A DNA stretch of 64,000 nucleotides from Chloroflexus aurantiacus J-10-fl. Lineage in GTDB: Bacteria; Chloroflexota; Chloroflexia; Chloroflexales; Chloroflexaceae. A program made the position numbers and the translations under genes. The stretch lies in NCBI RefSeq assembly GCF_000018865.1, contig NC_010175.1, positions 1,860,001 through 1,924,000 on the forward strand, given 5' to 3'. The notes under the pieces were generated by a model. The model worked only from the letters and a program-made list of their open reading frames with translations, did not search any database and was not told where the DNA came from. Positions 46,309 to 63,667 of the stretch are shown one piece after another; position 1 is the first letter of the stretch; each line of letters starts with the position of its first letter.

Positions 46309-48702
46309 ATGGAAGAGATCCTTGTGGTTGATGATAGTGAGCACGTGGGGCGCATGCTGGCCAACACCGTGCTGCCAGAGCTGGGCTACCGGGCGGCAAT
46401 TGCCCTCACCGGTCAGGGTGGGCTGGCACGATTGCGCGCCCATCAGCCTGACCTGATTTTACTCGATCTTCAGTTGCCCGATATGAACGGGCTTGACTTT
46501 CTCCGCATCTTAACCCAGGAAGGGATCGATATTCCGGTCATTTTAATGACTGCTCACGGATCCGAAATGATTGCGGTTGAAGCATTTCGCCTTGGTGCCC
46601 GCAATTATCTCATCAAGCCCTTTTCCGATACTGAAGCCCGTGAAGCGATTGACCAGGCTCTACGCGAACGGCGCCTGAAGCGTGAACGAGATCGCCTGGT
46701 TGGTCTCCTCCAGCAGCGGGTGCAAGAGTTAACTGTTCTTACTCGCGTTGGCAAATCGGTCACTGCGCTGATTGATCAGCGTCAATTGCTGGATCGGATC
46801 GTGGAAGCGGCTGTCTATATCACGCAGGCCGATGAGGGAATGCTCTTTCAATACAGTGATCAGGGGAACGAACTCATACCCCTGGCATTCCGTAATGTCG
46901 CCGTTGAGTCACCGCACCAGCTCCGTCTCCAAGTTACAAATTCGCTGGCAGGTCAGGTTATTCAAAGCGGAAAATCACTACGCCTGCACAGTGGTGTGAC
47001 CGGTGAACCGATCACTATTGCACCGGCATTCGTCGTTCAGGCAACACTCCAGACACCATTGCAGGTTGGAGATCGGATTACCGGCGTCCTGGTTGTCAAT
47101 CATCGCCGAAGCAATCGCAGCTTCAGTGAGAGCGACCAGTATCTGCTCGCTGCCCTGGCCGACTATGCAGCGATTGCGCTCGAAAACGCTCGCCTGTACC
47201 AGGCAGCACAGCGGAACGAAGCACGTTATCGAACCATCTTTACCAACGCCTCCGATATGATACTGATGCTGGACGCGAGCTGGCGTATCATCAGTGGTAA
47301 CCAGAGTAGTGCGCAGATTCTCGGCGTTGCAGAAAGTGATCTCGTTGGACAATCACTACAACGCTGGTGTCTGGCGCAGGAATGGCCCACAATTGCGCAA
47401 GCGCTCCAGCGGGTAGCGAGTGGTTTGCCACAGCCACCGTTTACCGTTTCACTCCAGCGTCAATCAAAAGAGCTGGCGATTGTTGAGATGAATGCACAAC
47501 GCCTGAACGTTGACGACCAGGCAATGATTGTTTGTGTCGGACGTGACCTTACCGAACGGCGTCGCCTGGAACAGCAACTCATTCAGTCGGATAAACTCTC
47601 GGCACTTGGCCAGTTAGTCGCCGGCGTTGCGCACGAATTAAACAACCCGCTGGCAAGCATCTCTGGTTATGCGCAATTACTGATGCGCAATCGCACTCTG
47701 CCGGAAGATGTTCGTGCCGACGTTGAACAGATTCGTCAACAAGCCGACCGTGCCAGTCGCATCGTGCGGAACCTGTTAATGTTTGCCCGTGAGCACAAAC
47801 CAGAACGCCTGCTCGTCCAGATAAATGAGGTTGTGCAGAGCACGCTATCGTTACAAGCGTATCAGTTGCGAGTAGACAATATCACTGTCCAGCTCGAACT
47901 CGATCCGGAGTTGCCGCAAACGCTAGCCGATCCCCATCAGTTGCAGCAAGTGCTGCTCAATCTCATCACGAACGCTCGCCAGGCAATGAGTGAAAAAGGC
48001 TCCGGTGTCTTGACCATTCGCACCCGGAACTGTGAAACAGGTGACGGTTCGTTCATTGAAATTACCGTTAGTGACACCGGTATCGGTATTCCGGCCCAAT
48101 ATCTCGATAAGATTTTCAATCCGTTCTTCACCACGAAGCCGGTTGGTCAGGGTACCGGACTTGGTCTCTCGATCTGCTATGGCATCATTCAAGAGCACAA
48201 GGGCCAGATTTGGGTTGAAAGCCATGAGGGCATAGGCACAACGGTCTTCATCCGTCTGCCGGTGATCAGCACATCGATTACCGAAACATCATCACCAGAG
48301 CAACCATTAGAGATAGAGAGTGGCCCGCGTCAACGGGTATTAGTGGTCGATGACGAAGAAACCATTCGGCACATGCTGCAACGCCTGCTTGGTGAACTGG
48401 GTCATCAGACAACAACAGTTGGCGATGTCGATGCGGCAATGAAAGCGCTGGCAACCCAACCGTTCGATCTGGTGATTACCGATCTGCGAATGCCGCAAAA
48501 AAGTGGTTTTGATCTCAGCGAAGCGATTCGGCGCACGTATCCACACCTGGCCGAGCGTATCATTTTTATCAGCGGTGACACGCTTAGCACACTGAAACCA
48601 GAACAGAAAGAGCAACTCCGTGGTAAATTGCTCTCCAAACCGTTTTCAATTCCACAACTGGCCGAACTGTTGCGCAATCTCCCTCACCGGCAAACAAATT
48701 AA
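46309..48702 (+). CDS. Cytoplasmic hybrid histidine kinase with receiver domains at both ends
   Basis: 797 residues, no membrane segment. Order: receiver (1-120, phosphoacceptor D53 in LILLDLQLPDMNG), GAF (about 150-300), PAS (about 305-420), HisKA with LVAGVAHELNNPLASISGYAQLL (His near 442), HATPase_c with NLITNARQAM and DTGIGIPAQYLDKIF and GTGLGLSI, then a second receiver (about 680-795, VVDDEETIRHML, LVITDLRMPQKSGFDL). The N-terminal receiver suggests it is itself the target of another kinase, while the second could pass phosphate on. The GAF and PAS domains suggest sensing of a soluble ligand. The partner is not evident. Confidence 0.92.
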   Translation: MEEILVVDDSEHVGRMLANTVLPELGYRAAIALTGQGGLARLRAHQPDLILLDLQLPDMNGLDFLRILTQEGIDIPVILMTAHGSEMIAVEAFRLGARNYLIKPFSDTEAREAIDQALRERRLKRERDRLVGLLQQRVQELTVLTRVGKSVTALIDQRQLLDRIVEAAVYITQADEGMLFQYSDQGNELIPLAFRNVAVESPHQLRLQVTNSLAGQVIQSGKSLRLHSGVTGEPITIAPAFVVQATLQTPLQVGDRITGVLVVNHRRSNRSFSESDQYLLAALADYAAIALENARLYQAAQRNEARYRTIFTNASDMILMLDASWRIISGNQSSAQILGVAESDLVGQSLQRWCLAQEWPTIAQALQRVASGLPQPPFTVSLQRQSKELAIVEMNAQRLNVDDQAMIVCVGRDLTERRRLEQQLIQSDKLSALGQLVAGVAHELNNPLASISGYAQLLMRNRTLPEDVRADVEQIRQQADRASRIVRNLLMFAREHKPERLLVQINEVVQSTLSLQAYQLRVDNITVQLELDPELPQTLADPHQLQQVLLNLITNARQAMSEKGSGVLTIRTRNCETGDGSFIEITVSDTGIGIPAQYLDKIFNPFFTTKPVGQGTGLGLSICYGIIQEHKGQIWVESHEGIGTTVFIRLPVISTSITETSSPEQPLEIESGPRQRVLVVDDEETIRHMLQRLLGELGHQTTTVGDVDAAMKALATQPFDLVITDLRMPQKSGFDLSEAIRRTYPHLAERIIFISGDTLSTLKPEQKEQLRGKLLSKPFSIPQLAELLRNLPHRQTN

Positions 48703-50914: not shown

Positions 50915-51667
50915 TCAAACCTCAATCTCAAGGCCATCGTAGGCGAAGGTCACCTCAGGCGGCAGGCCATAGTCGGCTCGATAATCAACAGAATGGGTCA
51001 TATGAACCAGAAACGTGCGTTGAGCGCCGACTTCTTGTGCCACCCGACCCGCCTCGGCAATCGAGAGATGGGTTGGATGTGGCTCAGCACGCAGCGCATT
51101 AAGGACTAAAACTCGCACACCACGGAGTGCCATAACAGCGGATGGCGGTACCGTACTGGCGTCGGTTACATACCCAAGAGCACCAATCCGATAGGCAGTA
51201 ATCATCCAGGTACCGTGGGGAACGGCAATCGGCACAACCGTCAATGGCCCGATCTGAAACGGTTCTTCCACAGCGTGAAGGGTAATCGAGGGGCGCGAAG
51301 AACCCTGTGACGTATCATCAAACGCATAGGCAAAGCGCTGTCGTACATCGGCCAGCGTTCGCGCACTGCCGAAAACGGGCAGTGAACCCTGCCGCAAACA
51401 GAACGGTCGTAAATCATCGAGACCAGCCACGTGATCGAAGTGAGCGTGGGTCAACAGTACCGCATCAATGCGTCGTAGACCGGCATTCAGCGCCTGGATG
51501 CGAAAATCGGGGCCGGCATCGATCAGAATCGTGAGACCATGACTGCGGATCAGCGCCGATGTACGTAACCGGTGATGGCGAGGATCGGAAGAGGTACAAA
51601 TTGGACAATCGCAGCCGATAACGGGAACGCCCATCGACGTACCGGTGCCGAGAAAGCGTAGTTGCAT
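50915..51667 (-). CDS. Metallo-beta-lactamase-fold phosphodiesterase-like hydrolase (PhnP-like)
   Basis: 250 residues. MQLRFLGTGTSMGVPVIGCDCPICTSSDPRHHRLRTSALI has the PhnP/YycJ-like start with two metal-binding-type Cys, and THAHFDHVAGLDDLRPF is the H-x-H-x-D-H motif. VHMTHSVDY carries a later His. PhnP hydrolyses cyclic phosphodiesters in phosphonate catabolism, but no phn genes are nearby, so the substrate is open. The start at 51667 was chosen because the family fold begins there; the frame is open 13 codons further upstream. Confidence 0.87.
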   Translation of the reverse strand: MQLRFLGTGTSMGVPVIGCDCPICTSSDPRHHRLRTSALIRSHGLTILIDAGPDFRIQALNAGLRRIDAVLLTHAHFDHVAGLDDLRPFCLRQGSLPVFGSARTLADVRQRFAYAFDDTSQGSSRPSITLHAVEEPFQIGPLTVVPIAVPHGTWMITAYRIGALGYVTDASTVPPSAVMALRGVRVLVLNALRAEPHPTHLSIAEAGRVAQEVGAQRTFLVHMTHSVDYRADYGLPPEVTFAYDGLEIEV

Positions 51668-51706
51668 GGCGCCGCACAGAGATGAATAAACAATGAATCC
51701 AAACAC

Positions 51707-52026
51707 TCGACGGCATTATACCATGACAACACGACGAAAAGCGCTTTTGCGGTTTTAGCTTCAGATATCACAACGCATTATCTTAAACTATATCGTACTA
51801 CAGGCTTTTCGTACATAAATAAACTGTTAGCCATTTGGCATCATAAAGGTATTCGCAATTGTCATAACCTGTCTTATACTATTGGTGAGCGACCTGAAAT
51901 GGAGGAATGTATCATTCACCAGCGGGATGCACGTGGAAGTACAGTACGTCACTCAGACAGACAGGCTTATGACACGCATCCTTTTCGCTGTCGGACGACA
52001 AACCAACGTACTACAGGAAGACAGTC
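51707..52026. other. Regulatory gap upstream of the sensor kinase
   Basis: About 320 bases, AT-richer than the flanking genes, no credible gene. It must hold the divergent promoters for the MBL hydrolase and the kinase, but I found no box pair with correct spacing. Confidence 0.45.
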
Positions 52027-54282
52027 ATGAGTCGGCTGATTGGCGAGCTGCAAAAACAGCTCAAATACCAGATTATCGGCCCCTTCCTCCTCCTTGCGAT
52101 TGTGGTAGCAATCGTAGGATTGACGATTGTCGCTTTTTTTCTCGCCCGTCAACAACAGGATCGCTTTGACAACGAGCTGGCCGCAGCAACTCGCACGGTT
52201 AGCGATGCCTTTCTTGCTCAGGAACAGGCGAATCTCAACTTTTTACGCGAAGTAGCTTTCGCCCAGCGCAACGAGAGCATCAATGCACCGGCAGTGGCCG
52301 ACGCATTCTATGAAAACAACGTTGAAGGTTTGCGGCTCGCCCTCGAACCTTTCTTCCTGCAAGGTACCCGTCGCAGTGATGTCCGCCTTGACCGGTTGAT
52401 GGCATTTGACCGCAGCGGTCGCACGATTGTCGATTTTGAGCGGCCACCGCTCGCCGGTGAAGAGACATATATTACTCATGACTCAATTGATCTCAGCAGT
52501 GCCTGGTTTACGTCACGCATCCTCAATGGTGAGGCCGATGAGCGTGGTGATAAATACGCCGGCCTGATCCAGTTTAGCAATACGCAGACGCTCTACCTGG
52601 CAACTATCGCACCGGTACGACGGGGTAATGAGGTGGTTGGCGGCCTGATCGTAGCAATTCGTATCGATAACCTGCTCAACACCGTTGTACAACAATCCCG
52701 ATTAGATGGAATCATTCTCTACGATCAGGAAGGAAATCTGATAGCCACTACCTTTAGCAGTCAGGCGCGACCTGCACCGCTGCGGCAAGAGCTGGTTTCA
52801 CAGGTTAAAGCCAATCCTGATCCATATGGACAAACCCTCTTCACCATCGAAACGATCAATGGTGTCGAGTATCAATTTGCTTATGTACCGTTAACCATCC
52901 GTGGGGGACGTGCTGGTATCATGGCAACAGCCCGTACCCGCGAAGAGGTGCTGTTAACGTGGAACAATATCAGCCCATTGCTGGTACTGATCACCTTCAG
53001 CTTAGGCCTGGGCATTGCCGTACTCGGTTTGTGGGTAGCCCGTCGCATTACCCGCCCCCTCGAAGAACTGGCGGAAACAGCCAGTGCCATCGTGAACGGC
53101 GATCTGCAACGACGTGCGTCAGTGAATACGCAGAACGAGATTGGTGTGTTGGCTCGACAATTCAATCGAATGACCGAGTACCTGATTGAATTACTTGCCC
53201 AGGTACGTGCCGAAGCTCGCCAGCGCACTGCAATCGTCGAAAGTATCACCGACGGTATTATCTTTATTGATGTCCATGGCGAGATTCGTTCTATTAATCG
53301 CGCTACACGCCGCCTGCTTGGTTTGAGTGATGATACAGCCCTACCCAAACGCCTCAGTGATCTACCGCTCGAACCACTGACTGAAGGTATTCCGGGCTTT
53401 GGCGATCAACGTGCCCAAAATCTCTATACCCTTGGCGATTATATTGTTCGGCTGTCAGTCGAAGATGTACGTGAAGATGATGGGCATCTGTTAGGGTATG
53501 TCGCCGTCTTGCAAGACCTCACCGAAGAGGTGATGGTCGACCGGGCAAAAACAAACTTTATCGGTACAATTTCCCACGAGCTTCGCACTCCACTCACGGT
53601 CATTCGTGGGAACGCCGATCTGCTGGCGCGTGGTCTGGCCGGACCACTCGAAGATGAACAGAAGAGCTTCGTTGAAGCAATTCGGTTGCAGGCAAACAAC
53701 ATGACAAACCTGATTAGCAATGTCATCACCATTGCTAATCTCGACTCTGGTTCACTGAAATCCACTCTCGAACCGATTGAGGTGCAGCGGCCAATCGAAG
53801 ATGCAATCTGGCAGACGCAAGGACAGATCAAAGCAAAGGGATTGCGGCTTGAAGTTGAAATACCAAAGAAGTTGCCAAAGGTCCTGGCCGATTTCGATCA
53901 TGTCCGCACCATCATGCTTCAGTTGCTTGACAATGCCCGGCGTTATACGAGTGCCGGTACTATCACCGTTCGTGTTATGCCTCAACCTGATACATTGCGG
54001 ATTGAGGTTAGTGATACAGGGCGTGGCATCCCACCCAACTTGCATCAACAAATCTTCGAGCGCTTCTTTCGCGGTGATGGGACAAGTGAGGGGATTAATT
54101 CCAGCGAACGTGGCATTGGATTGGGCTTAGCTATTTGCAAGCAACTGATCGAGCGTCTAGGGGGGACGATCGGCGTCGAGAGTGCGCCAGGTCAGGGAAG
54201 TACGTTCTTCTTCACATTACGGTACGCCGATGATACCGCCACTCCTGAAAAACCAGCAACCGGCCTGGAATCGGCTGCTTGA
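52027..54282 (+). CDS. Membrane sensor histidine kinase
   Basis: 751 residues. TM1 is at about 17-40 (IIGPFLLLAIVVAIVGLTIVAFFLA). An extracellular double-Cache-like sensor domain spans about 45-310. TM2 (about 315-338, LLVLITFSLGLGIAVLGLWVA) is followed by HAMP (RRITRPLEELAETASAIVNGDL), PAS (about 400-500, IVESITDGIIFIDVHGEIRSINRATRRLLGL), HisKA with H517 in ISHELRTPLTVIRGNADLL, and HATPase_c (LDNARRYT, DTGRGIPPNLHQQIF, GIGLGLAI). It senses an external signal; no response regulator gene follows. Its last 53 bases overlap the start of the giant surface protein gene, so the two are probably cotranscribed. Confidence 0.92.
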   Translation: MSRLIGELQKQLKYQIIGPFLLLAIVVAIVGLTIVAFFLARQQQDRFDNELAAATRTVSDAFLAQEQANLNFLREVAFAQRNESINAPAVADAFYENNVEGLRLALEPFFLQGTRRSDVRLDRLMAFDRSGRTIVDFERPPLAGEETYITHDSIDLSSAWFTSRILNGEADERGDKYAGLIQFSNTQTLYLATIAPVRRGNEVVGGLIVAIRIDNLLNTVVQQSRLDGIILYDQEGNLIATTFSSQARPAPLRQELVSQVKANPDPYGQTLFTIETINGVEYQFAYVPLTIRGGRAGIMATARTREEVLLTWNNISPLLVLITFSLGLGIAVLGLWVARRITRPLEELAETASAIVNGDLQRRASVNTQNEIGVLARQFNRMTEYLIELLAQVRAEARQRTAIVESITDGIIFIDVHGEIRSINRATRRLLGLSDDTALPKRLSDLPLEPLTEGIPGFGDQRAQNLYTLGDYIVRLSVEDVREDDGHLLGYVAVLQDLTEEVMVDRAKTNFIGTISHELRTPLTVIRGNADLLARGLAGPLEDEQKSFVEAIRLQANNMTNLISNVITIANLDSGSLKSTLEPIEVQRPIEDAIWQTQGQIKAKGLRLEVEIPKKLPKVLADFDHVRTIMLQLLDNARRYTSAGTITVRVMPQPDTLRIEVSDTGRGIPPNLHQQIFERFFRGDGTSEGINSSERGIGLGLAICKQLIERLGGTIGVESAPGQGSTFFFTLRYADDTATPEKPATGLESAA

Positions 54283-57200
54283 CCGTGATCGTCTCCGACG
54301 ACCATTGCCCTGGCTGATTCTCGGCTCTCTGTTGCTATTACTGCTGCTGATCTCGCTTGTGATCAACCTGATGATCGATCAGGTTGCGCCGCGCATGGAG
54401 TGGTTCAGCGGTGACGTGAGTAGCAGCGGAAGGGCTGATTATAGTTTCTGGAGCGGTGGCCCCCTGTTACCACCGTTCAACCCCAGTGTCATTGCTGCAC
54501 CAGAAGAAGAGTCAACTCCGGTAACAACACCAGAGACCGAACCAACAGATGTTCCGGTCATCGTGATTGAGGTACCGACGGCAACGTTCACGCCAACGGC
54601 GACGGCCACCCCCACGGCAACAGCCACGCCAACGGCCACACCAACGAATACGGCTACTCCGACGAGTACGCCAACCGCATCACCGACGGCAACACCGACC
54701 CGAACAGCGACCCCAACCCGGACGGCGACCCCAACCCGGACGGCCACACCTTCGCCTCCACCAACAGTAGAGGCTACGTTGCCGCCAACATCGCCACCAA
54801 CATTACCACCGGCAACAGCTACACCTACTGCCACGCCAACACGAACGGCAACAGCTACACCAACGGCCACGCCAACTCGCACGGCGCTACCAACGTTTAC
54901 CGCCACACCTACCCGTACGGCAACACCGGTACCAACGAGTACGCCAACACCTCGCCCCGGCGAGTCGATCTTCTTCTTTGCGAATGGTAGTATCAGTGTG
55001 AACGAGAATGTCGGGACACTGACAGTCACTGTTCGACTGGGCGCGCCAGCCGAGCAGACGGTACGGGTGCGGTACGAAACGATTGCAGGTAGTGCTTTGC
55101 CCGGTGATGATTACACGACAACGAGCGGGCAGTTGGTCTTTGCCCTTGGTGAACAACAAAAAACGTTTACAGTTCCGATCATCGCTGATGATCTGTACGA
55201 ACCGGCTGAAACTTTCACGCTCCGGCTCTTTAACCCAGAAGGCGGTTTCATAGGTATACCAGGCACAGCCAGCGTAACCATTATCGACACCAGTTCACCA
55301 CCGGTAATAAGTTTTGCCAATGCCGTGAGCATTGTCGAGGAAGGGGATGGTCTGGCCTCGGTTACCATACGGCTGGATCGTCTGTCGGGATTGGATGCCC
55401 GTGTCAGTTACACGATTGCCGGAACGGCATCACTGGCCGATCACGGCTTACGCAGCGGAACGATTGTCATACCGGCAGGGGCCAGTTCCGCACGCCTACT
55501 GATCCCCATTATTGACGATCCAGAAGATGAAGCCGATGAGACTATCATCATTCGGCTTACTTCGCCAGTCAATGCGACACTAGGTTCACCTGATGTCCAT
55601 ACTCTCACAATTCAGGATAATGATCAGGCCGGTATCATCTTGCAACCCTCGCTCATAGATGTGGCTGAAGGTAGTCCAAATGGTACCTATACCATCCGAT
55701 TAAGCAGCCGACCAACCGCACCGGTAATCATTACGCTAAATGGCGTCCAGGTGACGACGACACCGGCAACGCTCACCTTTACCCCCGACAATTGGGCTAC
55801 TCCTCAAACGGTGACGGTGCAGGCCATTGACGATCGGGTCGCCGAAACGACACCGCATCCGGGAACGGTAAGTCACGCTGCCAGTAGTACCGACCCATTT
55901 TATCAGGGGTTAAGTTTACCGGTGTTGAGTGTACGAATCGCGGATAACGATACCGCAGGTATTGTGACGCTGCCCTTTAGCCTGACGGTCGCCGAGGGTG
56001 GAACAGAAGCACTCTACCAGGTGCGACTGGCAACCCAACCAACGGCAAATGTGGTGGTAACGATAACGCCGTCGAATCAAGTCTTGCTCAATAATCAGAC
56101 CACCTCTGGACCGATTACATTAACCTTTACGCCGGCAAACTGGAATGACCTGCAAACAGTCCGGGTACGGGCAATTGATGATGAGATTGATGAGGGCATC
56201 AGTGAGGTGGTGCAGATTACGCATAGCGCCGCCAGTGCAGATACCTTCTACAATGGACTGACTGCCAATGTCGCAGTGACCGTTATCGACAATGATCTGG
56301 CGGGTATTGTGCTGTCGCCAGCGAATCTAACGCTTAACGAAGGTGGCACTGCAACCTACACTGTGCGTTTGAATAGCCAACCTGTTGCACCGGTGACCAT
56401 CGCGATCACACCGGAAATTGTCAATCCGGCTTCACCGCTCATCGTGAGCGAAAATCAGGTACTCCTCAATGGACAGCCCACCCTGACGTTGACCTTCACA
56501 CCCGGCAACTGGAACACGCTGCAAACGGTCAGTGTACAGGTTATTAATGACCAAATCGATGAGGCGCTCGATCCGGCAACAACCTACCTCGTCCACCTCC
56601 GTCACACGGCGACCAGCGCGGGGGATACGATTTACAACACGTTAGCGCCATCATTACTGCCGGTAACGATTATTGAGAACGATACCGCAGCTCTGATCAT
56701 CAGTCGAACTACCCTGAGCATGACTGAGGGTGGTACCGACTCTTACACCGTGCGTCTGGCAACCCAACCGCTGGCGGATGTCACCGTCACCATCACGCCG
56801 GAACTGGTCAGCGCCGCCTCGCCGCTGGTCGGCAGCAGCGGCCAACTCCTGCTCAACGGCCAGCCCACCCTCACCCTGACCTTTACCCCGACCACCTGGA
56901 ATACACCGCAAACCGTCAGCGTGCAGGCAATTGATGATAACGTCGTCGAGACCCTCACCACCACTTACGAACTTGACTTGCGCCACGACGTGGCGAGTGC
57001 CAGCGATCCGGTCTACAATGCCCTGGCCGACCGCCTCGTGCGGGTGACGGTGACCGAGAATGATGTGGCCGGGCTGATTATCAATCCCACTTCTCTCGCG
57101 GTAGCCGAAGGCGGACCGGCAGGCACCTACACCGTGCGGCTGGCGACCCAACCACTGGCGAATGTCACCGTTACTATTACACCAGAGCTGGTCAGCGCCG

Positions 57201-60200
57201 CCTCGCCGCTGGTCGGCAGCAGCGGTCAACTCCTGCTCAACGGCCAGCCCACCCTCACCCTGACCTTTACCCCGGCCACCTGGAATACACCGCAAACCGT
57301 CAGTGTGCAGGCAATTGATGATAACGTCGTCGAGACCCTCACCACCACCTACGAACTTGACTTGCGCCACGACGTGGCGAGTGCCAGCGATCCAGTCTAC
57401 AATGCCCTGGCCGACCGCCTCGTGCGGGTGACGGTGACCGAGAATGATGTGGCCGGGCTGATTATCAACCCCGCCGCCCTCACTGTAGCCGAGGGTGGGC
57501 CGGCAGGCACTTACACCGTGCGCCTAGTCACCCGGCCACTGGCGAATGTCACCGTTACTATTACACCAGAGCTGGTCAGCGCCGCCTCGCCGCTGGTCGG
57601 CAGCAGCGGTCAGCTTCTGCTCAACGGCCAGCCCACCCTCACCCTGACCTTCACGCCCAGCAACTGGAATACGCCGCAAACCGTCAGTGTACAGGCAATT
57701 GATGATAACGTCGTCGAGACCCTCACCACCACTTACGAACTTGACTTGCGCCACGACGTGGCGAGTGCCAGCGATCCAGTCTACAATGCCCTGGCCGACC
57801 GCCTGGTGCGGGTGACGGTGACCGAGAATGATGTGGCCGGGCTGATTATCAACCCCGCCGCCCTCACTGTAGCCGAGGGTGGGCCGGCAGGCACCTACAC
57901 CGTGCGCCTGGTCACCCGGCCACTGGCGAATGTCACCGTTACTATTACACCAGAGCTGGTCAGCGCCGCCTCGCCGCTGGTTGGCAGCAGCGGTCAGCTC
58001 CTGCTCAACGGCCAGCCCACCCTCACCCTGACCTTTACCACTGCCACCTGGAATACGCCGCAAACCGTCAGCGTGCAGGCAATTGATGATAACGTCGTCG
58101 AGACCCTCACCACCACCTATGAGCTTGACCTGCGCCACGACGTGGCGAGTGTCAGCGATCCAGTCTACAATGCCCTGGCTGACCGCCTGGTGCGGGTGAC
58201 GGTGACCGAGAATGATGTGGCCGGGCTGATTATCAATCCCACTTCTCTCGCGGTAGCCGAAGGTGGGCCGGCAGGTACCTACACTGTGCGGCTGGCGACC
58301 CAACCGCTGGCGGATGTCACCGTCACCATTGACGGCCAGGGCCAGGTGACACTGAATGGGCAGGCAACGCTGGCCCTTACCTTCACGTCGGGCAACTGGA
58401 ATACGGCGCAGACCGTCAGTGTCCAGGCAATTGACGACCAGATCGACGAGACGCCGACCGGTTCAAGCTATTCGATAACGCTCGGTCACGCGATCAATAG
58501 CCTCGATGACCCGATCTACGATGCTCTGCCGTCGGTTGGGTTGCCGGTAACCATTCTTGAAAACGATGTCGCTGCGGTCGTGCTTACCCCTGCCAGCCTG
58601 ACGGTGAATGAAGGCGGCACCGTTACCTATGCAGTGCGGCTGGACAGCCAACCGACAGCGAATGTCACCGTCACTATTGACGGCCAGGGCCAGGTTGAGT
58701 TTAGCGGTCAACCGACCATCACGCTGACCTTCACAGACGCTGATTGGAATGTTGATCAGACCGTCACCTTTACCGTCATTGATGATCAAATCGACGAAAC
58801 CATCAGTGGTGCCACATATCTGGTGACACTATCGCACACCGTAGCCAGTACCGATCCGGTTTACAGTGCTCTGCCGGCGGCTGCGTTACCGGTGACCGTG
58901 GTTGAGAACGATGTCGCTGCAGTTGTCCTTACCCCTGCCAATTTGACCGTGAATGAAGGTGATACGGCAACCTACGCGATACGGCTGGGCAGCCAACCGA
59001 CAGCCGATGTCACCGTCACCATTGACGGCCAGGGCCAGATTGAGTTTAGTGGCCAACCAACTATCACGTTGACCTTTACAGAGGCTGATTGGAACGTTGA
59101 TCAGACCGTCACCTTTACTGTCATCGATGATCAAATCGACGAAACCATCAGTGGTGCTACGTATCTGGTGACACTATCGCACGCCGTAGCCAGTACCGAT
59201 CCGGTGTACAGTGCCCTGCCAGCGGCTGCGCTACCGGTGACCGTGGTTGAGAACGATGTCGCTGCGGTTGTCCTTACCCCTGCCAGTTTGACCGTGAATG
59301 AAGGTGACACGGCAACCTACACGGTGCGGCTGGGTAGCCAACCGACAGCGGATGTCACCGTCACCATTGACGGCCAGGGCCAGATTGAGTTTAGCGGTCA
59401 ACCAACCATCACGTTGACCTTTACAGACGCTGATTGGAATGTTGAACAGACCGTCACCTTCACCGTCATTGATGATCCAAATGACGAGTCGCCGGCAGGG
59501 AACACCTATGCCGTGACGATAGGCCATGTTGCCGGTTCTACCGATCCGGTGTATAACGCGCTCGCACCGGCACCGCTGACACTAACCATCACCGAAACTG
59601 AAAGCGCCGGTCTCATCGTAACGCCTGCCATACTCACCGTAGCCGAGGGCGGGCCGGCGACGACCTACACCGTGGTGCTGACCAGTGAGCCGATTGCGAA
59701 TGTCACCATCGCCATCGACGGCCAGGGCCAGGTGACACTGGATGGGCAGGCAACGCTCACCCTCACCTTCACGCCGGGCAACTGGAATATACCGCAGACC
59801 GTCAGTGTCCAGGCCATTGATGACCTGATCGACGAGACCCTGACCGGAACAACCTACGATGTGACCCTGCTCCACATCCTGGGTGGCGGTGATCCTGTCT
59901 ACGCCAGCCTGCCATCGACACCACTCACAGTGACGATTGGGGAGAACGATACTGCCGGCGTCGTGATCGATCCCACGACACTCACGGTGGCCGAGGGCGG
60001 GCCGGCAGCGACCTACACCGTGGTGCTAACCAGCCAACCGACTGCGAATGTCACCGTCACCATCGACGGTCAGGGCCAGGTGACGCTGGATGGGCAGGCA
60101 ACGCTCACCCTCACCTTCACGCCGGCTAATTGGAACATACCACAGATCATCACCATCCAGGCCATTGATGACCTGATTGACGAGACCCCGACCGGGACAA

Positions 60201-63200
60201 CCTACGATGTGACCCTGTTCCACATCCTGGGTGGCGGTGATCCTGTCTACGCCAGCCTGCCGGCGGCACCACTCACAGTGACGATTGGGGAGAACGATAC
60301 TGCCGGCGTCGTGATCGATCCCACGACACTCGCGGTGGCCGAGGATGGGCCGGCGGCGACCTACACCGTGGTGCTGACCAGCCAGCCGACCGCGAATGTC
60401 ACTGTCACCGTGGACGGTCAGGGCCAGGTGACGCTGGATGGGCAGGCAACGCTCACCCTCACCTTCACGCCGGGCAACTGGAATACGGCGCAGACCGTCA
60501 ATGTCCAGGCAATTGACGACCAGATCGACGAGACGCCGGGGATCAGTTACGAAGTTACGCTGCTCCATGTGCTGGCTGGAGGTGATCCGGTTTACACCAG
60601 CCTGCCGGCGGTACCACTTACGGTGACGATTATCGAGAACGACACTGCCGGTCTGAACATTAGCCCGACCAGCCTGACGATTACTGAAGGTATTGTGGGG
60701 ACGTATGAGGTGAGCCTGACCAGCGAACCGCTTGCGCCGGTTACTGTCGTTATTAACGGTGCAGGATTGTTGCAGGTGAATGGTGGAGCAACGGCAACGC
60801 TGACCTTCGACGATTCCAACTGGAACAACCCTCAGACCGTTAGTGTGCTGGAACCGAATGTCGATCAGATTGCCCAACCACCACGCAACCGCACCATCAC
60901 CCACGCCACAACCAGCGTAGACCCGGCATACAGTGGGTTGAGCGGTATCATCCTGGCGGTGACCGTAAATGATGATGATATTCCGGATATTGTGATCAGC
61001 GCCACTACCCTCACCGTTACCGAAGGGGGTAGTATGAATTACAGCGTTGCGCTGGCAACCCAGCCCACAGCCAACGTCACCGTCACCATCGACGGCCAGG
61101 GTCAGGTAACCTTGAACGGACAGGCGATCTTGAACCTGACCTTTACGCCGGCAACCTGGAACACGCCGCAACCTGTCACTATCGCTGTACCGGAAGACGC
61201 CATTGCTGAAGCGACCCAAACGATTGCAATCACCCATTCGGCAAGCAGCAGCGATCCATTCTACGCTGGACTGAATGGACCTGCGCTTGATCTCACCATC
61301 GTCGACAACGACACCGCAGGATTTGTGGTCACAGTTCCGCCGGCACCGTTGATTGTCTCGGAAAATGGCGACAGTATCGAGTTAAGACTGCGTCTCACCA
61401 GCCAGCCGACAGCACCGGTGCAGGTCAATATCTCGGTTAGCGACCCAACCGAGGGCAGTGTCGCCCCGACGAGTGTCATCTTTGACAATACAAACTGGAA
61501 TATCGACGCAATACTGACGGTCACCGGCGTAGACGATCTGCTGGAAGATGGACATCAACCGTTTACAGTCCAGCTTGCGCCAGCGGTAAGCAGCGATCCC
61601 TTCTACAACGGCCTGCCGCCGACTCCGAATAGTGTAAACGTCCTCAACCGCGACAACGAGCCGGTGCGGATTAGCATCGACGATGTTACACGGTTTGAAG
61701 GTGATAGCGGTGTAACAAACAGTATCTTTATCGTGCGCATCAATCGGGTGTCGGATCGAGATATCTTGTTCGATTACACAACCACCGATGGCACTGCACT
61801 CGCTATCCTGGATTACGGTGCTTCAGCCGGCACCCTCACCATTCCTGCCGGTTCACTCCAGGTCACATTACCGGTGGGCGTGATTGGCGATACGCTGGCT
61901 GAAGACGATGAGTTTTTCACCGTCAACCTGAGCAACCCACGGGCCACTCTGCCCGGACAGCCAGCCACCATCGTGACCGATGAGATGGTCGTCATCGGTG
62001 ATGGGATAGGCGTGGGAACCATTCGTGATGATGATCCTCCGGCAGTACGCTTTGCCACCGGTGATGTTGTCGTTAACGAGAGCGCCGGCCTGGTGACACT
62101 AACCGTCACCCTGAGCCGGGCAGCCACTGTACCAGTGAGCGTTGACTACGCAACCATAACCGGCGGAACGGCCCAGCCAGGTGATGGATCGGCACCAACG
62201 CACGACTATGTGCCGGTAAGTGGCACTCTGAACTTTGCAGTAGGAGAAACGAGTCGGACCTTCACGATCCAGATACTGAACAACGCGAGCAGCGATCAAC
62301 CATTCGAGACGATTCTGGTAAGTTTGAGTAATCCAACCGGTGCGACATTGGGCGATCCGTCTACCACAACTGTCACCATCGTCGATGCGACACCGGTATT
62401 GCTAACCCAAGACCCAACGGCATTGCAAACTGCCGGCCCTAACTACACAACCTTCAACTGGAACTTCTACGGCATGAATGAAGGTGCCTCAATCGTCCGC
62501 ATTGACGTACCGTGTGGCGTGAGCGGTCTGTTGGCGGTTGAATTACTCAGCCCGTCGATCAACCCAGCCACTAACTTCACCGATGCTATCCGAGGTGTAG
62601 CGGAAAGTACCACCTTTACGCTGTATCGCATGCCGGTTGGCTGGCAGGCCGGTGATGGCTATCCACCAACTGTTGGTACTCTGGTGACCAGTGCCACCTA
62701 TCTCCCCAATACTGGCGATGCCACGACCTGGGTTGCTCTACCGGGCATTCCCGGTACGACCCCGTGCGGAGTCTATCTGCTTGTCGCGAGTGTTCCAGAC
62801 GATGATACGAATGGATGGGCTGTGCGCAGTGGCTGGAGTGGCAGCGGTACACCTACCGTCGACTTAGATGGCATACCGGGAAGCGGCGACGAGATTGTAC
62901 AGAGTATTGTACGCCAAACCCTACGCCATCCACCGGGAACACCGTTCTGTACTACCTTCTTCCAGTATGTAGCACCAGGGCAGAGCAGTGTCGCTTTCCA
63001 CAACTTCGACTTGAACGATGTTGGTAGTGGCTGGGTACGCTACTATCCACCCGGATCAGTCTACGATCCCACCGGACAGAGTGGCGGGATTGCAGGTACC
63101 GCTTCGGCTGATGGACAGTGGAACAACGGCACAACAACAACTCGTGGCGGTGACGTTATCCTTTCACCGCAGCCGGGCTGGTGGCGGATTGTCACCTGCA

Positions 63201-63667
63201 CGAACAGCGCTACGAGCGAGAACCACTTCATTCAGGAAGGGCAGACTGGCGTACCCCTCTACCTGAACATCCCACCCACACCTGATGTGGCGTTGCAGGC
63301 ATCATCGGTATCTTCGGTATCAACCGGAAATACGTTCAATCTGGCTGTTGACTATACCAATCAGGCAAGTGGCATTACCGCCGGCGCCGCCCGTGATTTC
63401 CAGATCACAATCACCTTGCCGAATGGGATCAGCTTTGATAGCGGTGCCTGTGCAGGAACCCCTGGTACGTGCACCATTAGCGGTCAGACGATGACTATTG
63501 ATATTGGCTTGCTGGCAGCGGGTTCAGGCAACACCTTCAGTATACCGCTGGTTGCCGGTGCAAATCCGGTGGGGGCAAGCCCAATCACGGTACAGGCGAC
63601 GGCCACTGACCAGAGTGGTCAGCCGTATCAATGGCAAGACTATGTGATTGTGCGGATTGTACCGTGA
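54230..63667 (+). CDS. Giant membrane-anchored surface protein with a Thr/Pro stalk and many Calx-beta-like repeats
   Basis: About 3,145 residues. Start at 54230 is the best ATG (MIPPLLKNQQPAWNRLLDRD); a GTG at 54182 is in frame; neither has a good binding site. Residues 27-49 form one hydrophobic anchor. Residues 114-245 are almost only Thr, Pro, Ala and Arg in TPT-type repeats, a stalk. From 246 to about 2720 there are some twenty beta-domains: two classical Calx-beta units at the start, about eighteen of an EGG..YTV..TLTFT..NW..PQTV..DD type, then Calx-beta units again (DYGASAGTLTIPAG, DDEFFTVNLSN). The C-terminal 420 residues hold other beta domains, ending in a DUF11-like unit. No C-terminal anchor is seen. 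The topology is N-terminus inside, repeats outside. Adhesion or cell-cell contact is the likely role. Confidence 0.88.
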   Translation: MIPPLLKNQQPAWNRLLDRDRLRRPLPWLILGSLLLLLLLISLVINLMIDQVAPRMEWFSGDVSSSGRADYSFWSGGPLLPPFNPSVIAAPEEESTPVTTPETEPTDVPVIVIEVPTATFTPTATATPTATATPTATPTNTATPTSTPTASPTATPTRTATPTRTATPTRTATPSPPPTVEATLPPTSPPTLPPATATPTATPTRTATATPTATPTRTALPTFTATPTRTATPVPTSTPTPRPGESIFFFANGSISVNENVGTLTVTVRLGAPAEQTVRVRYETIAGSALPGDDYTTTSGQLVFALGEQQKTFTVPIIADDLYEPAETFTLRLFNPEGGFIGIPGTASVTIIDTSSPPVISFANAVSIVEEGDGLASVTIRLDRLSGLDARVSYTIAGTASLADHGLRSGTIVIPAGASSARLLIPIIDDPEDEADETIIIRLTSPVNATLGSPDVHTLTIQDNDQAGIILQPSLIDVAEGSPNGTYTIRLSSRPTAPVIITLNGVQVTTTPATLTFTPDNWATPQTVTVQAIDDRVAETTPHPGTVSHAASSTDPFYQGLSLPVLSVRIADNDTAGIVTLPFSLTVAEGGTEALYQVRLATQPTANVVVTITPSNQVLLNNQTTSGPITLTFTPANWNDLQTVRVRAIDDEIDEGISEVVQITHSAASADTFYNGLTANVAVTVIDNDLAGIVLSPANLTLNEGGTATYTVRLNSQPVAPVTIAITPEIVNPASPLIVSENQVLLNGQPTLTLTFTPGNWNTLQTVSVQVINDQIDEALDPATTYLVHLRHTATSAGDTIYNTLAPSLLPVTIIENDTAALIISRTTLSMTEGGTDSYTVRLATQPLADVTVTITPELVSAASPLVGSSGQLLLNGQPTLTLTFTPTTWNTPQTVSVQAIDDNVVETLTTTYELDLRHDVASASDPVYNALADRLVRVTVTENDVAGLIINPTSLAVAEGGPAGTYTVRLATQPLANVTVTITPELVSAASPLVGSSGQLLLNGQPTLTLTFTPATWNTPQTVSVQAIDDNVVETLTTTYELDLRHDVASASDPVYNALADRLVRVTVTENDVAGLIINPAALTVAEGGPAGTYTVRLVTRPLANVTVTITPELVSAASPLVGSSGQLLLNGQPTLTLTFTPSNWNTPQTVSVQAIDDNVVETLTTTYELDLRHDVASASDPVYNALADRLVRVTVTENDVAGLIINPAALTVAEGGPAGTYTVRLVTRPLANVTVTITPELVSAASPLVGSSGQLLLNGQPTLTLTFTTATWNTPQTVSVQAIDDNVVETLTTTYELDLRHDVASVSDPVYNALADRLVRVTVTENDVAGLIINPTSLAVAEGGPAGTYTVRLATQPLADVTVTIDGQGQVTLNGQATLALTFTSGNWNTAQTVSVQAIDDQIDETPTGSSYSITLGHAINSLDDPIYDALPSVGLPVTILENDVAAVVLTPASLTVNEGGTVTYAVRLDSQPTANVTVTIDGQGQVEFSGQPTITLTFTDADWNVDQTVTFTVIDDQIDETISGATYLVTLSHTVASTDPVYSALPAAALPVTVVENDVAAVVLTPANLTVNEGDTATYAIRLGSQPTADVTVTIDGQGQIEFSGQPTITLTFTEADWNVDQTVTFTVIDDQIDETISGATYLVTLSHAVASTDPVYSALPAAALPVTVVENDVAAVVLTPASLTVNEGDTATYTVRLGSQPTADVTVTIDGQGQIEFSGQPTITLTFTDADWNVEQTVTFTVIDDPNDESPAGNTYAVTIGHVAGSTDPVYNALAPAPLTLTITETESAGLIVTPAILTVAEGGPATTYTVVLTSEPIANVTIAIDGQGQVTLDGQATLTLTFTPGNWNIPQTVSVQAIDDLIDETLTGTTYDVTLLHILGGGDPVYASLPSTPLTVTIGENDTAGVVIDPTTLTVAEGGPAATYTVVLTSQPTANVTVTIDGQGQVTLDGQATLTLTFTPANWNIPQIITIQAIDDLIDETPTGTTYDVTLFHILGGGDPVYASLPAAPLTVTIGENDTAGVVIDPTTLAVAEDGPAATYTVVLTSQPTANVTVTVDGQGQVTLDGQATLTLTFTPGNWNTAQTVNVQAIDDQIDETPGISYEVTLLHVLAGGDPVYTSLPAVPLTVTIIENDTAGLNISPTSLTITEGIVGTYEVSLTSEPLAPVTVVINGAGLLQVNGGATATLTFDDSNWNNPQTVSVLEPNVDQIAQPPRNRTITHATTSVDPAYSGLSGIILAVTVNDDDIPDIVISATTLTVTEGGSMNYSVALATQPTANVTVTIDGQGQVTLNGQAILNLTFTPATWNTPQPVTIAVPEDAIAEATQTIAITHSASSSDPFYAGLNGPALDLTIVDNDTAGFVVTVPPAPLIVSENGDSIELRLRLTSQPTAPVQVNISVSDPTEGSVAPTSVIFDNTNWNIDAILTVTGVDDLLEDGHQPFTVQLAPAVSSDPFYNGLPPTPNSVNVLNRDNEPVRISIDDVTRFEGDSGVTNSIFIVRINRVSDRDILFDYTTTDGTALAILDYGASAGTLTIPAGSLQVTLPVGVIGDTLAEDDEFFTVNLSNPRATLPGQPATIVTDEMVVIGDGIGVGTIRDDDPPAVRFATGDVVVNESAGLVTLTVTLSRAATVPVSVDYATITGGTAQPGDGSAPTHDYVPVSGTLNFAVGETSRTFTIQILNNASSDQPFETILVSLSNPTGATLGDPSTTTVTIVDATPVLLTQDPTALQTAGPNYTTFNWNFYGMNEGASIVRIDVPCGVSGLLAVELLSPSINPATNFTDAIRGVAESTTFTLYRMPVGWQAGDGYPPTVGTLVTSATYLPNTGDATTWVALPGIPGTTPCGVYLLVASVPDDDTNGWAVRSGWSGSGTPTVDLDGIPGSGDEIVQSIVRQTLRHPPGTPFCTTFFQYVAPGQSSVAFHNFDLNDVGSGWVRYYPPGSVYDPTGQSGGIAGTASADGQWNNGTTTTRGGDVILSPQPGWWRIVTCTNSATSENHFIQEGQTGVPLYLNIPPTPDVALQASSVSSVSTGNTFNLAVDYTNQASGITAGAARDFQITITLPNGISFDSGACAGTPGTCTISGQTMTIDIGLLAAGSGNTFSIPLVAGANPVGASPITVQATATDQSGQPYQWQDYVIVRIVP
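57067..58218. repeat. Three nearly identical 384-bp tandem units inside the giant gene
   Basis: Units at 57067, 57451 and 57835 have exactly 384-base spacing (128 codons) and are almost identical in DNA, including silent positions. A related, more diverged 381-base unit lies just before. Similarity at silent sites points to recent duplication or gene conversion. Confidence 0.9.
58565..59599. repeat. Tandem 345-bp units inside the giant gene
   Basis: Units starting at 58565, 58910 and 59255 are spaced by 345 bases (115 codons) and share long stretches such as GATGTCGCTGC and VTVTIDGQGQ. They are a second repeat subfamily, distinct from the 384-bp units. Confidence 0.85.
59948..60640. repeat. 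Third repeat subfamily inside the giant gene (348/345-bp units)
   Basis: Units beginning at 59948 and 60296 are 348 bases apart and share ENDTAGVVIDPTTL and VTVDGQGQV-type blocks; the next begins at 60641. A related unit precedes at about 59600. Confidence 0.8.

Follow-up and report, generated by a model that had tools for sequence, protein, structure and literature searches.

A dCache-type sensor kinase and its overlapping membrane-anchored neighbor form a conserved gene pair and a candidate two-part receptor in Chloroflexus aurantiacus and relatives

The window analyzed here comprises 64,000 nucleotides of the genome of Chloroflexus aurantiacus J-10-fl, a filamentous phototrophic bacterium (NC_010175.1, positions 1,860,001 to 1,924,000), and all coordinates refer to this stretch. 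Close to its 3′ end, a gene for a sensor histidine kinase overlaps the gene of a very large protein, which is termed the partner below. The following features were assigned, all on the forward strand.

52027 to 54282, + strand: sensor histidine kinase, 751 aa, TM1-dCache-TM2-HAMP-PAS-HisKA-HATPase (ORF, Pfam, and motifs)
52066 to 53031, + strand: TM1, predicted extracytoplasmic dCache sensor, and TM2, aa about 14 to 335 (AF2 model and Foldseek)
53032 to 53184, + strand: HAMP (Pfam)
53545 to 54225, + strand: HisKA (53545 to 53751) and HATPase (53890 to 54225) (Pfam)
54230 to 54282, + strand: 53-nt overlap with two coding frames, kinase tail and partner N terminus (synonymous constraint)
54230 to 63667, + strand: partner, 3,145 aa, candidate co-receptor anchored in the membrane by its N terminus (ORF and Pfam)
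54305 to 54376, + strand: single TM helix of the partner, aa about 26 to 49 (alignments by eye)
54410 to 54451, + strand: conserved juxtamembrane segment GDVSSSGRADYSFW, aa 61 to 74 (alignment)
54503 to 54958, + strand: Thr/Pro-rich linker, 62% P+T, presumed stalk (composition)
54965 to 62300, + strand: Calx-beta/LapA-like repeat array, end approximate (Pfam on the whole protein)
56744 to 60651, + strand: three tandem DNA arrays within the repeat region (repeat analysis)
62301 to 63664, + strand: distal C-terminal part, start approximate (ORF)

The translated kinase contains the catalytic motifs SHELRTP and GIGLGLA (identified by eye), and its HAMP, PAS, HisKA (63 bits), and HATPase (102 bits) domains all exceeded the Pfam cutoffs. 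Its best NCBIfam match was WalK with 267 bits, far below the cutoff of 725. An AF2 model of residues 1 to 340 reached a pLDDT of 84.8 and a pTM of 0.74, and the top Foldseek matches of this sensor model were the dCache domains 2p7j (E value, 2.2e-10; TM, 0.52/0.64) and 3lid (E value, 4.6e-10). A sequence search for solved structures related to the sensor returned none at an E value of 0.01. The Pfam dCache_3 score of the window kinase was 25.4 bits, slightly below the cutoff of 25.7; the ten relatives scanned exceeded the cutoff. From the model, the sensor part of the kinase is predicted to have a dCache fold, with two Cache subdomains on a long helix, flanked by one TM helix on either side.

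A preliminary description of this DNA had proposed an outward-facing sensor, a kinase stop codon 53 bases inside the frame of a 3,145-residue protein, and no response regulator after the pair. The predicted fold agrees with the first point, and the overlap was confirmed from the ATG at 54230 to the end of the stop codon at 54282. Inspection of the flanking ORFs by eye also revealed no response regulator among those of at least 130 aa within 9 kb 3′ of the pair; these ORFs resemble, among others, a C45-type hydrolase, TrpC, and MBL-fold proteins. A hybrid receiver and kinase gene is located at 46309 to 48702, four genes and 3.3 kb upstream of the pair, and the divergent gene beside the kinase (50915 to 51706, − strand) resembles the metallo-β-lactamase fold (both by eye). 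The walK loci of Bacillota also have a metallo-β-lactamase gene nearby, and this shared neighbor is probably a coincidence.

The partner frame, which ends with a stop codon at 63665 to 63667, is open from the ATG at 54230 or from an in-frame GTG at 54182 (3,161 aa). The GTG was rejected as the partner start; it is not conserved, and loci L024 and L027 have no upstream start codon yet keep the ATG at −50. We therefore favor the ATG as the probable start. Of 308 synonymous comparisons within the last 17 kinase codons of seven Chloroflexus genomes, 280 were identical (0.909), compared to a mean synonymous identity of 0.50 and a highest value of 0.76 in the other 17-codon windows, none of which (0 of 739) reached the value of the overlap. 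Because of this difference, the overlap cannot be ascribed to chance; selection acts on both frames, and the stretch is dual coding. In 48 of 96 kinase-partner loci, spread over several families of the order, an in-frame ATG precedes the stop codon of the kinase by exactly 50 nt. In 67 of the 96, the nearest in-frame ATG lies within −56 to −44, a spread that is skewed toward −50 by the choice of the ATG nearest to this position among the in-frame starts (the 48 loci at exactly −50 are unaffected). The six loci of genus g20 (L138 to L143) have an overlap of the 4-nt ATGA type.

Shine-Dalgarno-like motifs of at least 4 nt were detected at 19 of 95 partner starts and at 51 of 73 kinase starts, with a background of 24% at random sites within the kinases. 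The ribosome-binding signal of the partner start thus does not exceed the background, which fits a dependence on kinase translation. Translational coupling is documented for overlaps of 1 to 4 nt, and subunits of complexes are enriched in short gene overlaps (PMC10666635). Since the 50-nt overlap exceeds this length, the mechanism of coupling is uncertain. A promoter scan from 51600 to 54700 yielded two promoter-like sites, one within the kinase gene and one preceding it, against an expectation of 2.7, which fits a separate promoter of the partner as well as a shared one.

The TM helix of the partner is preceded by basic residues, so that the N terminus would be located inside and the C terminus outside the cell. 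Among 39 aligned partners, Tyr71 is invariant and Pro54 is present in at least 90%. The shared pattern of these proteins consists of a short basic N terminus, one TM helix, a DY..W motif or a variant (e.g., AYEPF), and a P/T-rich linker. P/T linkers are common throughout these genomes, and the TM-plus-Tyr end is hardly found away from a sensor. The whole window partner matched Calx-beta with 255 bits (cutoff, 27) and LapA with 63 bits, both above the cutoff. Its three tandem arrays consist of 4.1 copies of 384 nt (93% matches), 2.8 copies of 345 nt (89%), and 2.9 copies of 348 nt (87%), and the repeat number of this giant gene is probably changing. The lengths of the 58 complete partners spanned 188 to 3,396 aa, with a median near 720 aa; 17 reached 1,000 aa, and some of the shortest (L127, L029, L040, and L054), which stop inside the P/T linker, close to a contig end, or in a changed frame, are possible assembly errors. 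A Pfam scan of ten other partners detected Calx-beta in four (L027, L028, L041, and L055), DUF11 in two (L037 and L047), and no match in four. The ectodomain is not conserved, and conservation of the partner is confined to its membrane end. Conservation of the partner as a giant adhesin, the stalked adhesin of the preliminary description, is ruled out by this spread in length and variety of domains, with Calx-beta missing in six of the ten other partners.

To what extent the pair occurs in relatives was followed at two levels. Six of the seven congeners keep a full-length kinase orthologue with a partner behind it; G005 lacks the window pair but has a second, paralogous pair. In the C. aurantiacus genome itself, another pair (L041) lies at 3.687 Mb. 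Orthologous partners were readable to the end in three congeners, with 2,913 (L022), 3,168 (L024), and 3,164 aa (L025). The partner of the orthologous kinase in L036 has 503 aa, and that of the paralogous pair in L047, a single-contig genome, has 468 aa. At the level of the class, 158 genomes were searched with a partner profile (A1; first 90 aa, 39 rows) and a sensor profile (A2; first 340 aa of the kinase, 31 rows). A1 matched at an E value of ≤1.2e-8 in 63 genomes and A2 at ≤1e-15 in 65 (lists matched by eye). All 63 genomes with a strong partner match have the sensor, which is also present in two further genomes: in G066, contig ends truncate the sensors, and in G087, a partner with an E value of 2.4e-5 lies behind a cyclase. 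Neither was found at these cutoffs in 93 genomes, 16 of which have a partner match at E values of 2.6e-4 to 0.01; together with G087, 17 genomes have weak partner matches alone. A1 gave 97 matches at an E value of ≤1.5e-6, all of which were examined, and 27 weaker ones, three of which were fetched (L147 to L149); L149 then gave no match.

Of 99 partner loci, 96 are positioned directly 3′ of a histidine kinase gene on the same strand, and L147 lies behind a cyclase. L146 and L148 have neither a kinase nor a cyclase upstream, and both rank among the three weakest of the 99. The first 41 loci (the window and L021 to L060) were selected or identified next to a kinase; the independent sample consists of the 58 loci found by the partner profile alone (L091 to L148), largely relatives of profile members, and 55 of these are linked to a kinase and one (L147) to a cyclase. 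The pair is old and widespread among relatives, co-directional, and deeply conserved. In L164 (G057:C8, 1760 to 4487), an in-frame stop codon splits a paired kinase between the sensor/HAMP and the catalytic part, with the partner still behind it, which may represent an error, a pseudogene, or a real split.

The association extends to relatives of the sensor with other outputs. In ten dCache-HAMP examples, Pfam confirmed Guanylate_cyc (L147, L239, L253, L254, L265, L270, L261, and L158), HD_5 (L199), or GGDEF (L244) outputs. A partner is located behind L147, L199, L239, L253, L254, L265, and L270 and is absent in L244 and L261; L158 ends with the contig. In a larger survey of 170 distinct sensors (duplicates removed), 127 had a partner, 27 had none, and 16 lay at contig ends; a partner was accepted by a loose rule or a profile match, and outputs were classified from motifs or small custom profiles. 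With contig ends excluded, the partner follows 85 of 87 histidine kinases within the order. Outside the order, a set that includes nine loci (classified as Chloroflexi or Anaerolineales only) with an inferred order, it follows 20 of 23 histidine kinases, 13 of 21 HD-GYP proteins, 9 of 12 cyclases, and 0 of 7 GGDEF proteins, the last all from one family (f28). These counts include uncorrected miscounts: L037 was scored negative and has a partner, L276 (one of the eight negative HD-GYP proteins) shows a partner by eye, L054 and L125 are split kinases scored as having another output and no partner, and L156 is a shortened kinase.

As a control, the loose rule was applied without the profile and with duplicates retained; it asks for an ORF that opens between −200 and +250 relative to the stop codon and contains a hydrophobic segment and a P/T-rich stretch. 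It assigned a partner to 126 of 156 sensor genes compared with 11 of the 366 remaining long genes of the loci, and three of these 11 (L050, L125, and L127) are pieces of the same kinases. ADY segments were present in partners of cyclases or HD-GYP proteins in L147, L197, L199, L203, L237, L239, and L265. Because HD-GYP and cyclase outputs also have the partner, it belongs to the dCache sensor module and not to the kinase, and a partner tied to kinases only is ruled out. The kinase-partner system of the preliminary description is a real, overlapping, co-directional pair; its conservation in relatives means that one refuting condition named there, a lack of such conservation, did not refute it. 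The system has to be redefined insofar as the partner goes with the dCache sensor, including HD-GYP and cyclase outputs. No partner was detected behind seven of seven GGDEF, eight of 21 HD-GYP, and three of 12 cyclase types outside the order and behind one cyclase (L159) within it, which indicates that this sensor type can work without a partner.

Several loci displayed variants of this arrangement. A second partner subtype, with an M.SNLDP-like segment that replaces the Tyr segment after the TM helix, is found behind kinases of family f19 (L241, L255, L256, L263, L266, L271, L272, L274, L275, and L290). Behind the cyclase-type sensors L267 and L268 lies a TM protein whose part outside the membrane carries GG(T/S)YAPD; the rule did not count this protein, which is possibly a further subtype. 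The GGDEF-type relatives of f28 without a partner are L244, L245, L247, L249, L252, L260, and L264; G173, G319, G326, and G333, among the same f28 genomes, also have HD-type relatives with a partner. L158 (760 to 2991) encodes a dCache-HAMP-cyclase with a response regulator receiver before TM1 (31.7 bits; cutoff, 30.2).

With moderate confidence, we interpret the two genes as encoding the two halves of one membrane receptor, in which the partner would be a co-receptor of a portable dCache sensor and would act like WalH and WalI on WalK, to which it is unrelated in sequence. WalH and WalI have a single N-terminal TM helix and repress WalK of Bacillus subtilis via TM contacts, and their outer domains are dispensable for this repression (PMC8534201 and PMC7355866). 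In the WalK-WalH/WalI system (YycG-YycH/YycI) of Bacillus and Staphylococcus, as in the pair described here, a histidine kinase goes together with extracytoplasmic modulators that have a single N-terminal TM helix and, in that system, are co-transcribed with it (PMC8534201 and PMC7355866). The partner shares this layout, with a single N-terminal TM helix, a predicted extracytoplasmic body, and a gene adjoining that of the kinase. No YycH/YycI Pfam match was obtained for the window partner and ten other partners. MgrB-PhoQ, LiaF-LiaS, and SpdC/Abx1 likewise comprise membrane proteins that act on a kinase, via the TM region in the case of MgrB, SpdC, and Abx1 (PMC8534201). Unlike the WalH/WalI system, the pair has a P/T stalk, a variable ectodomain, a 53-nt overlap, and no adjoining response regulator gene, and the partner type also occurs behind HD-GYP and cyclase outputs. 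We know of no stalked surface ectodomain in MgrB, LiaF, or SpdC/Abx1 and of no tie of these proteins to one sensor type across output classes.

In such a receptor, the kinase would contribute the dCache sensor with its two TM helices, and the TM helix of the partner and its first ~25 extracellular residues (Tyr segment) would dock on the TM/dCache part of the sensor. The Thr/Pro stalk and the changeable outer domains would reach through the cell surface, where the outer domains could relay what they meet (a ligand, Ca2+, a neighboring cell, or wall stress) or keep the sensor off. The overlap without its own Shine-Dalgarno sequence would tie translation of the partner to that of the kinase, and evolution would have combined the same sensor-partner front end with outputs of the kinase, HD-GYP, and cyclase types. 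Physical contact, translational coupling, and the direction of the effect are parts of this scheme that we infer. Given a constant membrane end next to a constant two-TM sensor, the partner would most simply bind the sensor in the membrane or just outside it. A mutual information analysis of 91 pairs, a small set with an effective number of 66, displayed no enrichment of the sensor TM helices among the top pairs. Observations that count against a co-receptor include the length of the overlap, the relatives of the sensor without a detected partner, and the partner-like match in L146 (26.9 bits), which has no adjoining kinase or sensor; in addition, most partners of histidine kinases in family f19 lack the Tyr segment, so that their identity there is given by position, TM helix, and P/T-rich tail only.

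The partner could alternatively be an effector, i.e., a surface adhesin or coat protein that is made together with a sensor regulating it or attachment generally, without physical contact between the two. LapA-type and Calx-beta repeats are frequent in adhesins, and the window partner has both, in long arrays. Moreover, the dCache-HD-GYP protein DvhD belongs to a system controlling giant adhesins in Desulfovibrio (PMC13090378). The Lap/Dvh systems (LapD-LapG-LapA and DvhD-DvhG) resemble the loci studied here in this link and in the LapA-type repeats; they differ in that the partner has an N-terminal TM anchor, the outputs include histidine kinases and cyclases, and the LapG-type protease (Peptidase_C93) was found in none of 21 genomes, compared to a match in one of 14 control genomes. 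LapG-type release of the partner is rejected on the basis of this absence from the 21 genomes, which also argues against an effector, as do the variation of the outer part at a constant membrane end, the four of ten scanned partners without any Pfam match, and an association that spans three output types. We consider the effector unlikely.

A contact or attachment sensor as suggested in the preliminary description, in which the giant protein touches a surface or a neighboring filament and pulls on the kinase, appears still less probable: the long stalk and reach, the outward dCache sensor, and the giant ectodomains kept in three congeners (L022, L024, and L025) would suit this role, whereas partners of 503 aa (L036) and 468 aa (L047) are short for a long-reach probe. 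Finally, the overlap might simply fix the gene order mechanically for two functionally unrelated proteins, given that a dual-coding overlap, once formed, is hard to break. This is very improbable, since the linkage survives 4-nt or zero overlap (L138 to L143, L044, and L200), holds across paralogues and output types, and is accompanied by the sensor without exception in the 63 strong-partner genomes.

Extending the co-receptor interpretation to the phylum, we tentatively suggest, with slightly less than even confidence, a portable two-protein receptor, in which a dCache module and a stalked co-receptor would be inherited as a unit, often with the constant overlap, and coupled to a kinase, an HD-GYP protein, or a nucleotidyl cyclase as the output. 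Its outer part would be exchanged and lengthened freely, setting what is sensed and how far out; binding of surfaces, sugars, calcium, or other cells by this part, as well as adhesion and mechanical sensing, are guesses. No description of such a pair was found in the open-access literature searched, and the passages of PMC3018481 contain nothing on this arrangement. Accessory proteins of sensor kinases as such are already known, as single cases. What is unusual here is the stability across output types, with the partner staying with the sensor domain through changes of the output across the phylum, together with the long conserved overlap. As a dual-coding stretch at the same place in several families, this overlap constitutes a test case for the translation of overlapping genes. 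As a natural experiment, the pair itself can inform on the function of a co-receptor, and it offers a route to what Chloroflexota sense at their surface.
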